Source: Blastococcus sp. TBT05-19
GTDB taxonomy: Bacteria > Actinomycetota > Actinomycetes > Mycobacteriales > Geodermatophilaceae
Assembly: GCF_003319095.1 (NCBI RefSeq)
Contig: NZ_QOHI01000004.1
Location: 248,001-312,000, forward strand
Length of the DNA stretch: 64,000 bases
Reading direction: 5' to 3'
Below are positions 25,785 through 30,766 of this stretch, in pieces (the stretch's first letter is position 1; each line of letters opens with the position of its first letter). The translations under genes and the position numbers were made by a program. The notes below the pieces were generated by a model that did no database searches, was not told the DNA's origin, and saw only the letters and a program-made list of their open reading frames with translations.

Positions 25785-27662
25785 ATGGGCAACGACGCAC
25801 TCGTCCGCCCTCCCGGGCGTCGACCCCTGCCTGGAACCAGCGAAGGACCACTCCTGCCCGAGACGCCGCCCCAGCCCGCCACCGCCCGACGTCGGGAGCG
25901 CTCCTCCTCCCGCCGGACGCAGGCCCGCGAGTCCGACAGCATCGCCGCCCGCGCCGAGAAGCTGGCCCAGCAGAGCTGGGTCGAGGGCGCCGAGCCCGAG
26001 CTCCCCGTGCGCCCCGTGCCCCCCGAGAACGTGGTCTTCCACCTCGGCCCGACGAACTCCGGCAAGACCTACGAGTCGCTGCAGGCGCTCGCCGCCACCG
26101 GCTCCGGCGTCTACGCCGCGCCACTGCGCCAGCTGGCCCACGAGGCCTACGCGAAGCTGTCGGCCCAGCTGCCCGAGGGCATGGTGGGCCTCTCGACCGG
26201 CGAGGAGGAGATCGACCCCTTCGCGCCCATCGTCTGCTGCACCGTCGAGAAGGCGCCCCCGCGCGGCGAGATGCTCGTGCTCGACGAGGCGCACTGGGTC
26301 ACCGACCCCGACCGCGGCCACCACTGGGCCCGCCTGCTGCTCACCGGCGAGTACCGGGAGATGCACCTCATCTCCGCGGCGGAGGCCTACCTGGTGCTCA
26401 AGCCGCTGGTCTCCGACGCCGAGCACGTCGAGGTCGTCAACCACAAGCGGCTCTCCCGCCTCGACGTCCTGAGGGCCCCGGTGCGGGCCGACGGCGTCCG
26501 CCCCCAGACGCTGGTCGTCGCCTTCTCCCGCAAGGCGGTCTACGCCGTGGCCGCCGAGCTCGACCAGCACCGGCCCGGCAAGGTCGGCGTCCTCTACGGC
26601 GCCCTGCCACCGGCCACCCGCCGCGAGGTCATCGAGCGCTTCACCAGCGGCGAGCTCGACGTGCTGGTCACCACCGACGTCATCGGCCACGGCATCAACG
26701 TGCCCGCCACGACCGTGCTCTTCGCCGAGACGACGAAGTTCGACGGCCAGGAGATGCGGCCGCTGCGCACCTGGGAGGCCGCCCAGATCGCCGGGCGGGC
26801 CGGTCGCTACGGCCTCACCGGGCACGGCGCCGTCGGCATCCTGATAGGGGTCAGCGGGCTCAGGCCGATCGCCTCCCTGGTCGGCGCCGGTGCCGCCGTC
26901 GCGCGCGGCGACGAGATGAGCGACCTGCCCAAGCGGGCGCCCCGGCTGCGACCGGAGCTGGAGGACCTCGGCGCCTTCGAGCCGGTCGACCTCCCCGAGG
27001 CCCTCACGCGCTGGATGGCGTGGGCGCGCGCCGCCACCCGCGACCAGGCGATGACCGCCGACGACGTGACCAGCCTGGTGCTGCGGGTGCACGCCCTGCT
27101 GCCGCTGCTGCGCGGCCCGCTGGGCGCGGCCGGCGACCTGCGGACCGTCTGGCGCCTGGTCAACCTGGCGATCGACTACAACCCGCCGCGGCGCACCCGC
27201 TGGCTGGTGCTCGCCAAGGCCGCGCTGCAGCACGAGGTCGGCATCCCCGTCCCGCCGGAGACCGTGCTGCCCGACGTGCCGCGCGGCGGCGGCGTCGAGG
27301 ACTACGAGCAGGCGGCGGCCGCCGCGCGCGACGCGCAGACGCTGCTGCGCCAGTTCCCCGGCGTCGGCGGGCTCTCCGGCGACGACGCCGCCTGGGTCGA
27401 GGAGGAGTGCGCGGAGATGATCACCGAGCTGCTCCCCGACGCCATCGCCCTGGGCCGCTCCGGGAAGTGCACCGACTGCGGCCGGCCCATCGCGCCCTGG
27501 TTCACCACGTGCCGGCCGTGCAGCGCCCCCGCGGGCCGCGGCAGCGCCGGCGAGCGGGACCGCCGTCCCTCCTCGGGCGGGCGCCGGACCGCCGGACGGG
27601 CCGCCGGGCGCGCCCTGGGCGGACGGCAGGGCGGCCCGCGGGGGCGGTCCCGCCGGGGCTGA
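25785..27662 (+). CDS. SUV3-like RNA helicase with C-terminal zinc ribbon
   Basis: The 625-residue protein is a superfamily 2 helicase whose Walker A reads GPTNSGKTYES, the hallmark of mitochondrial SUV3, followed by APLRQLAHEAY, LSTGEEE, LDEAHW (motif II), TTDVIGHGIN and QIAGRAGRYG (motif VI). The C-terminus adds a CTDC...CRPC zinc ribbon and a 60-residue Arg/Gly tail likely to grip RNA. SUV3 unwinds RNA for degradation by a partner exonuclease. A bacterial role in RNA turnover is inferred. ATG 25785 is preceded by GAGCGT at 6 nt. Confidence 0.85.
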   Translation: MGNDALVRPPGRRPLPGTSEGPLLPETPPQPATARRRERSSSRRTQARESDSIAARAEKLAQQSWVEGAEPELPVRPVPPENVVFHLGPTNSGKTYESLQALAATGSGVYAAPLRQLAHEAYAKLSAQLPEGMVGLSTGEEEIDPFAPIVCCTVEKAPPRGEMLVLDEAHWVTDPDRGHHWARLLLTGEYREMHLISAAEAYLVLKPLVSDAEHVEVVNHKRLSRLDVLRAPVRADGVRPQTLVVAFSRKAVYAVAAELDQHRPGKVGVLYGALPPATRREVIERFTSGELDVLVTTDVIGHGINVPATTVLFAETTKFDGQEMRPLRTWEAAQIAGRAGRYGLTGHGAVGILIGVSGLRPIASLVGAGAAVARGDEMSDLPKRAPRLRPELEDLGAFEPVDLPEALTRWMAWARAATRDQAMTADDVTSLVLRVHALLPLLRGPLGAAGDLRTVWRLVNLAIDYNPPRRTRWLVLAKAALQHEVGIPVPPETVLPDVPRGGGVEDYEQAAAAARDAQTLLRQFPGVGGLSGDDAAWVEEECAEMITELLPDAIALGRSGKCTDCGRPIAPWFTTCRPCSAPAGRGSAGERDRRPSSGGRRTAGRAAGRALGGRQGGPRGRSRRG

Positions 27663-29236: not shown

Positions 29237-29278
29237 GCGAGATCAAGTCCCGCAGAAGCGAGGTCAGGTCCCGCAGAA
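29237..29278. repeat. 21-bp tandem duplication at the 3' end of selO
   Basis: Two adjacent 21-bp units (29237-29257 and 29258-29278) differ at two positions. Read on the minus strand each encodes FCGT followed by TGA, so the last codons and stop of selO are present twice in tandem. Confidence 0.85.
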
Positions 29279-30727
29279 CGTGACGTAGGCGCCGAACGCC
29301 TCCGGCGCCGGCTCGGCGTAGCGCTCCAGGCCGGGGCGCTCGTCGAACGGCCGGGCGAGCACCTCGAGCAGGCGGTGGAGCGGCTCCAGGTCGTCGGCGG
29401 TCGCCGCCGTGAGCGCCTGCTCCACGAGGTGGTTGCGCGGGATGTAGACGGGGTTGACCCGGTCCATGGCGGCGGCGTCGGGGCCGACGGCGCGCCACCG
29501 CTCCAGCCAGGCGTCGAACCCGGCGAGGTCGAGCACCAGCAGCCGCGCGGGCTCGGCGTCGCCGCGTGCCGCGTCGCCGAGCCGGCGGAAGAACGTCGTG
29601 TGGTCGACCCGGTTGTCCCGCATCAGGGCCTGCAGGTCGTCGATCAGGCCGGTGGCCACCTCGCCGTCGAGCCCGTCGGGGAGGCCCAGCTTGGCCCGCA
29701 TGCCCGCGGTCCACGCCTCGCTGTACCGGCGGCGGAAGGTCCCCAGGGCCTCGGTGGCGATGCCCACTGCGGCCTCGGTGTCCTCGGCCAGCAGCGGCAG
29801 CATCGCCTCGGCCAGCCGGGCCAGGTTCCACTCGGTCACGATCGGCTGGTTGCCGTAGGCGTAGCGCCCGGCGGTGTCGATGGAGCTGTAGACGCTGCCC
29901 GGGTCGAACACGTCGAGGAACGCGCAGGGCCCGTAGTCGATGGTCTCGCCGGAGATCGTCACGTTGTCGGTGTTCATCACCCCGTGCACGAAGCCGACCA
30001 GCATCCAGCGGGCCACCAGCTCCGCCTGCACCTGGAGCACCTGCTCGTACAGCGCCAGGTAGGGCTGCGCGGCGTCGGCGGCGGCCGGGTGGTGCCGGGC
30101 GATCGCGTGGTCGGCGAGCCGGCGCAGCAGGTCGGCGTCGCCGGTCGAGGCGGCGTACTGGAAGCTGCCCACCCGCAGGTGGCTGCTCGCGACCCGCGCG
30201 AGCACGGCGCCCGGCAGCTCGGTCTCGCGGCGCACGCCGCGCCCGGTGGCGACCACGGCGAGGGCGCGGGTGGTGGGGATGCCGAGGGCGTGCATCGCCT
30301 CGCTGACCACGTACTCGCGCAGCATCGGCCCGACCGCGGCCAGCCCGTCCCCGCCGCGGGCCACCGGGGTGCGCCCGCTCCCCTTGAGGTGCAGGTCGAG
30401 CAGCCGGCCGTCGGCGCGGGTCAGCTCGCCGAGCAGCAGCGCCCGGCCGTCGCCCAGCCGCGGGCTGTACCCGCCGAACTGGTGCCCGGCGTACACCTGG
30501 GCCACCGGCGTCGCGCCCGCGGGCACCGCGTTGCCGACCAGCAACCGGAGGCCGTCGGCGCCCCGCAGGGCGGCCGGGTCGAGGCCCAGCTCGCCGGCCA
30601 GCGCGTCGTTGAGCACCAGCAGCCGCGGCTCGGGTGCCTCCTCGGCCGTCCAGCGGATCGCCAGCTCGGGCAGCTCGGAGGCGAAGCGGTCCCCGAGGAC
30701 CAGGGTCGGGGCAGGTGCGACGCTCAC
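29264..30727 (-). CDS. selO: Protein adenylyltransferase SelO
   Basis: The 487-residue pseudokinase transfers AMP to Ser, Thr or Tyr of target proteins in redox stress. Family segments: [52 protein letters not shown] (catalytic), [10 protein letters not shown]. The C-terminus ends FCGT; the terminal Cys is the position that is selenocysteine in some eukaryotic members. GTG 30727 is chosen over an upstream in-frame start because TACGCT stands 7 nt before it. The terminal codons are tandemly duplicated after the stop. Confidence 0.92.
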
Positions 30728-30734
30728 GGTTCCG

Positions 30735-30740
30735 AGCGTA
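30735..30740 (-). promoter_or_regulatory. Leaderless -10 box (TACGCT) for selO
   Basis: TACGCT on the minus strand ends 7 nt before GTG 30727, with no ribosome site between. Confidence 0.5.
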
Positions 30741-30766
30741 CGAGCGCGTCGCACGCGCCGCCGGGC

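Follow-up and report, generated by a model that had tools for sequence, protein, structure and literature searches.

The Suv3 family has been described as one of eukaryotes and purple bacteria, and DEAD-box helicases are assigned to the bacterial degradosomes, in the part of PMC5818665 drawn on here. PMC5758563 deals with the core of Suv3, the helical domain at its C-terminus and the contacts it makes with Dss1, and in yeast the partner of Suv3 is an RNB nuclease (PMC5758563, PMC5818665). Among the titles and abstract openings of the open-licence papers listed, none concerned an actinobacterial or ribbon-bearing Suv3. Here we describe a Suv3-like gene of Blastococcus sp. TBT05-19, which lies in a window of 64,000 nucleotides, the whole stretch of DNA that was analysed. 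We consider it rather likely that its product, P0001, is a stand-alone accessory, ATP-driven SF2 RNA helicase from a divergent DExH lineage that sits beside Suv3.

The gene is an open reading frame on the forward strand (25785-27662, +), with an ATG at 25785 and a stop codon that ends at 27662, and encodes 625 amino acids with zero internal stops. The GPTNSGKT Walker A and STGEEE motifs that the first-pass annotation had pointed out are present, at residues 88 and 137, followed by DEAH at 167, QIAGRAGR at 334, CTDC at 562 and CRPC at 576. RecA1 matches the Pfam family DEXQc_Suv3 (PF22527; 107.4 bits, E 6.8e-31, against a cut-off of 27) and RecA2 matches Helicase_C (PF00271; 52.1 bits), and both domains were found in 21 of the 21 rows of alignment A1, P0001 included. 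The Walker A motif, the D, E and H of motif II, motif VI and the four cysteines C562, C565, C576 and C579 are invariant across the same rows. A sub-threshold Pfam DEAD match falls inside the DEXQc_Suv3 region, and beyond residue 343 Pfam gave zero matches at E ≤ 1. The stretch of ~80 residues before the core gave no Pfam match and is poorly modelled, with pLDDT below 50 for residues 1-75. The core (0.73/0.46/0.99 GC at codon positions 1/2/3), the C-terminal region (0.81/0.51/0.99) and the ribbon are all supported as coding by their codon-position GC. The values for the tail (0.89/0.91/0.93) are uninformative alone, so the reality of the tail rests on its open frame and on the orthologs.

Table 1. 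Layout of the P0001 gene in window coordinates.
Feature	Coordinates	Strand	Basis and remarks
N-terminal region, residues 1-57	25785..25955	+	Basic; low-confidence prediction; poorly conserved, variable in A1
RecA1, DEXQc_Suv3, residues 82-216; Walker A GPTNSGKT, motif II DEAH	26028..26432	+	PF22527, motif positions
RecA2, Helicase_C, residues 240-343; QIAGRAGR motif VI	26502..26813	+	PF00271, motif position
Helical C-terminal region, residues 354-556; probable divergent Suv3 C-terminal domain	26844..27452	+	Model, hhalign; fold comparison weak
C4 ribbon CxxC-x10-CxxC (C562, C565, C576, C579)	27453..27527	+	Putative zinc site; cysteine conservation
Basic Arg/Gly-rich tail, residues 582-625	27528..27659	+	Net basic in most relatives; sequence variable

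Sequence searches of the PDB placed yeast and human Suv3 best, with E 1.5e-43 to 1.4e-41 for matches that span the RecA core. The top match, yeast Suv3 6f4a_B (E 1.5e-43), covers residues 81-353 only, and the next protein after Suv3 is the Mtr4-type helicase FRH at E 2.5e-19. The NCBIfam cut-off was reached by none of the best 25 of the 37 families that match P0001. A role in defence was also considered and set aside: the PADLOC matches, among the best 25 of 26 families, all cover only parts of the RecA region, the best of them (E 1.2e-12, 44.7 bits) spanning residues 266-353. With Suv3/SUPV3L1 (3rc3, 6f4a) P0001 shares the RecA1-RecA2 core, the GPTNSGKT Walker A, the TGEE motif, a QIxGRAGR motif VI and a helical C-terminal region, in the same order. 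It differs from Suv3 in carrying DExH rather than DExQ as motif II, in having only ~80 residues before the core, in its C4 ribbon and Arg/Gly tail, and in giving no Pfam SUV3_C match.

A scan of genome contigs with P0001 returned 36 related loci. We compared these with 17 other bacterial and phage Suv3-like proteins, an uneven sample chosen by hand from plasmid, phage and genome matches; by tblastn 46 plasmid and 16 phage records match P0001, none over more than 80% of the query. L064, the same species and protein as L053, was left out of the counts, as were L002, L003, L054 and L063, which we took as Ski2-like or weak; L003 and L054 are absent from the tree, and L063 yielded no C-terminal region for profile comparison. 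Motif II reads DEAH in 21 and DESH in 15 of the 36 related loci, and the DExQ form of Suv3 occurs in none. The actinobacterial protein L055 shares DEAH, which there follows Walker A by 79 residues. DExQ is the form seen in yeast Suv3 and in the 16 remaining Suv3-like rows, and in the 10 of these 17 rows where the Walker A pattern was found it lies 79-85 residues downstream of that motif.

The Geodermatophilaceae proteins and L055 group together (support 95/98) in a tree built from 25 core sequences, and a 98/97 branch parts this group from yeast Suv3 and 12 bacterial or phage rows; yeast Suv3 is the single eukaryotic sequence in this tree, and the two outgroup rows are long, so that its deepest branching order is tentative. 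L057, which has DExQ, and an alphaproteobacterial branch linked to S4-domain genes also fall outside the group that contains yeast Suv3. On the basis of motif II and tree position we would file P0001 as a Suv3-like DExH lineage and not as Suv3 proper. The label of SUV3-type helicase given at first pass thus holds for the core, with its DEXQc_Suv3 match and its ranking of Suv3 first in the PDB, but not in the strict sense. L055, from a genome of another class (G045), is alike in its DEAH at equal distance from Walker A, its x10 ribbon and a core 52% identical to that of P0001, but is shorter (509 amino acids) and has no Arg/Gly tail. The Bacillota proteins L041, L047, L049 and L053 share the core and a C-terminal CxxC-CxxC ribbon with P0001; theirs, in contrast, have DExQ and an x12 gap in place of x10, and group with yeast Suv3 in the tree. 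The Ski2-like helicase L002 of the same genome has an SF2 core and a DExH motif II (DEFH) like P0001, but its core is only ~30% identical, it sits on a far branch of the tree, and its C-terminal region has no match to that of P0001.

The region after the core is probably a divergent Suv3 C-terminal domain, a reading favoured by profile comparison. Pairwise hhalign probabilities, which carry no database-search correction, were 97 with L055, 94 with L057, 88 with five Bacillota rows and L056, and 38 with five proteobacterial rows and a phage; the ribbon lies inside the alignments with L055, L057 and the Bacillota group. The value was 0.1 both with the Ski2-like helicase of the same genome and with the S4-linked alphaproteobacterial branch. 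The Pfam families SUV3_C and Suv3_C_1 gave no match in P0001 at E ≤ 1; of 9 other Suv3-like proteins tested, only 5 reach the SUV3_C cut-off, and the DExQ relatives L047, L049 and L053 have no SUV3_C match either.

The fold comparison for this region is weak. The model of the whole protein, built on an alignment of close relatives only, is poor (mean pLDDT 60.7). Foldseek ranked three Suv3 chains first for it, over ~500 columns that run through the C-terminal region, with TM-scores of 0.21-0.24 and an rmsd of 21. VIA-align gave human Suv3 a Z of 13.0 over 388 aligned residues (rmsd 21), level with Brr2 and further structures at Z ≥ 12 whose alignments are confined to the RecA part. Folded alone, residues 354-582 reached a mean pLDDT of 82.1. 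Foldseek with the C-terminal region alone returned no match at E ≤ 0.001, and Suv3 was absent among the best 50 of 91 rows. For this region human Suv3 came first in VIA-align (Z 6.3, 189 aligned residues, rmsd 8.7), level with a designed repeat protein, and the aligned range of human Suv3, 157-689, is not confined to its C-terminal domain.

All 36 related loci preserve the C4 ribbon, which, judging from its cysteines, is probably a zinc-binding knob near the end of the protein; Pfam zinc-ribbon matches are weak and touch few rows, with DZR in 2 of the 21 rows of A1 at a best E of 0.25. It was first noted as an added module. The CxxC-CxxC element is real, but it is not a special addition, since 8 of the 17 other Suv3-like proteins carry a similar one: Priestia L041, Butyrivibrio L047, Cytobacillus L049, Lachnospira eligens L053 and Azospirillum L058, together with the actinobacterial L055, L056 and L057. 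The remaining nine (L040, L048, L050, L051, L052, L059, L060, L061 and L062) are without it. The gap between the knuckles is x10 in P0001, L055 and L057, and x12 in the remaining six ribbon carriers. On the tree the distribution of the ribbon is clustered and needs at least five changes, three of them forced by well-supported branches, so that repeated gain or loss among Suv3-like proteins is likely.

The basic Arg/Gly tail was also borne out. Past the ribbon, Lys plus Arg exceeds Asp plus Glu by at least 4 in 33 of the 36 related loci, while the sequence itself is variable. The three exceptions are L006, which is acidic in a frame open to the end of the locus; L013, with 273 residues after the ribbon, 40 basic vs 39 acidic; and L029, with 4 residues before the locus ends. 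The post-ribbon sequence is cut by the end of the locus in L025, L026 and L029. Elsewhere, the open frame beyond the ribbon runs for 131 residues in L057 and 78 in L058, and L058 and L056 have basic, Gly-containing residues after the ribbon.

The helicase gene looks like a rare, accessory one. By title 35 of the 36 related loci belong to Blastococcus, Modestobacter, Geodermatophilus or Geodermatophilaceae, the other (L035) being an unverified Bacillus sp., and identity to P0001 in the C-terminal region is 65-96% across these loci. The copy of Geodermatophilus poikilotrophus (L038) is split over two reading frames, through either a pseudogene or a sequencing error. Strong PF22527 matches (at least 105 bits) occur in 19 of 30 Geodermatophilaceae genomes, our own included; 3 of the 11 genomes without one are less than 90% complete. 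The remaining PF22527 matches within the family are weak and do not exceed 40.5 bits, those of our own genome being L002 and L003. Rarity in Actinobacteria, where SUV3-based RNA turnover was called rarely discussed at first pass, was evident: at E ≤ 1e-15 a draw from the class gave 1 of 296 genomes, our own, and thus 0 of 295 others, and a draw from the phylum, which shares genomes with it, gave 2 of 100, our own and G045, and thus 1 of 99 others. The class of G045 has a match in 3 of 80 genomes. Two tblastn scans of viral contigs, one with A1 and one with a Methylobacterium relative, found no relative.

As an accessory enzyme P0001 would bind and hydrolyse ATP with its two RecA domains and move along single-stranded RNA, in the 3'-5' direction if it follows Suv3, with the helical C-terminal region closing the channel as it does there. 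The C4 ribbon and the basic Arg/Gly tail may offer extra docking on RNA or on a ribonucleoprotein. P0001 would in this way open structured RNA as a stand-alone enzyme, possibly with help to PNPase or RNase E.

It is unlikely that P0001 acts as a genuine bacterial equivalent of the helicase in the mitochondrial degradosome, in a complex with PNPase or an RNB nuclease. The Suv3-type core and the PNPase encoded in the genome speak for such a role, and PNPase is the partner of human Suv3. However, a search for RNB (RNase II/R/Dss1) gave no match in our own genome (G000; 99.89% complete, 25 contigs) or in G012, G020 and G028, the other sampled genomes of the genus; the same search was positive in 19 of the 30 genomes of the family and in 11 of the 14 control genomes. 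Of the 19 genomes that have the helicase 13 have RNB, vs 6 of the 11 without it (Fisher p 0.70), which gives no sign of a link. The strong helicase match is itself missing from 11 of the 30 family genomes, three of these less than 90% complete, and the protein is therefore not a core decay factor there. Nor is there a conserved neighbour: of 35 loci, at most 5 have any one gene family next to the helicase, on gene calls that are rough and based on a custom GC3 rule. The RNA turnover machine first proposed for this gene is not supported by these results, and with no RNB match in the four sampled genomes of the genus, no sign of co-occurrence and no conserved neighbour a helicase-RNB complex of the yeast type is unlikely in this genome. 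PNPase (894.3 bits) and RNase E/G (347 bits) were scored in G000 for presence only, and their presence makes a link of the helicase to PNPase possible.

The genes around the helicase in the window encode an HbpS-like protein, a WhiB regulator, a BrkB-type membrane protein, a MetE-type enzyme, SelO and TauE, none with an obvious RNA role. The order WhiB-BrkB-helicase-MetE-type is complete in L004, L005 and L007, and is kept up to the helicase in L006, where the locus ends.

Homology of the core alone does not separate an RNA from a DNA substrate, and P0001 could be a DNA helicase for repair or recombination, its Suv3-like core shifted to a DExH role of the Hel308/Ski2 kind. The Geodermatophilaceae are stress resistant, motif II is DExH as in the Ski2-like L002, RecA2 has a weaker match to Hel308 (E 2e-11), and the title of a study of human SUV3, cited in PMC10253155, speaks of multiple-substrate unwinding. 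We nevertheless regard this as improbable: Suv3 ranks above Hel308 and Ski2 in the sequence, profile and Foldseek searches, and no recurrent neighbour family resembles a repair gene, as judged from first residues.

In the alphaproteobacterial branch, whose Suv3-like helicase has no ribbon, an S4-domain gene comes directly after the helicase in 3 of 3 annotated loci (Sphingomonas L059, Rhizobium L060 and Paracoccus L062), annotated as RNA-binding in two of them, and this pairing could point to a ribosome-linked role there. A ferredoxin gene comes next after the S4-domain gene in Sphingomonas and Paracoccus. A role for P0001 on rRNA or on ribosomes that are stalled or immature, docked there by a ribbon and Arg/Gly tail that would suit rRNA binding, is decidedly improbable, since the S4-linked branch is without the ribbon, stands apart in the tree and gives no match in its C-terminal region, and no S4-type neighbour was identified for P0001.

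A further and less likely reading takes in a distinct actinobacterial DExH Suv3-like lineage as a whole, which would comprise the Geodermatophilaceae and at least one lineage of another class. Its ribbon, joined in the Geodermatophilaceae by the Arg/Gly tail, might be a docking module that replaces the Suv3 N-terminal domain, and the enzymes might work without an RNB nuclease, perhaps on PNPase or the ribosome. More broadly, the occurrence of Suv3-like proteins with a common C-terminal ribbon in Bacillota, Actinomycetota and Azospirillum suggests that this type of helicase is wider in bacteria than the picture in PMC5818665, and that the nuclease partner of Suv3-like helicases is not fixed. 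The main consequence would be for the history of the mitochondrial Suv3 enzyme.

Two further observations were made in passing. The Salicola phage SCTP-2 encodes a Suv3-like helicase (L051, 2554-4374) that is annotated as a hypothetical protein. Near the helicase in our window lies a gene for a SelO protein adenylyltransferase (29267-30754, −; 358.5 bits), and a SelO gene is also found in 10 other helicase loci, on either strand.
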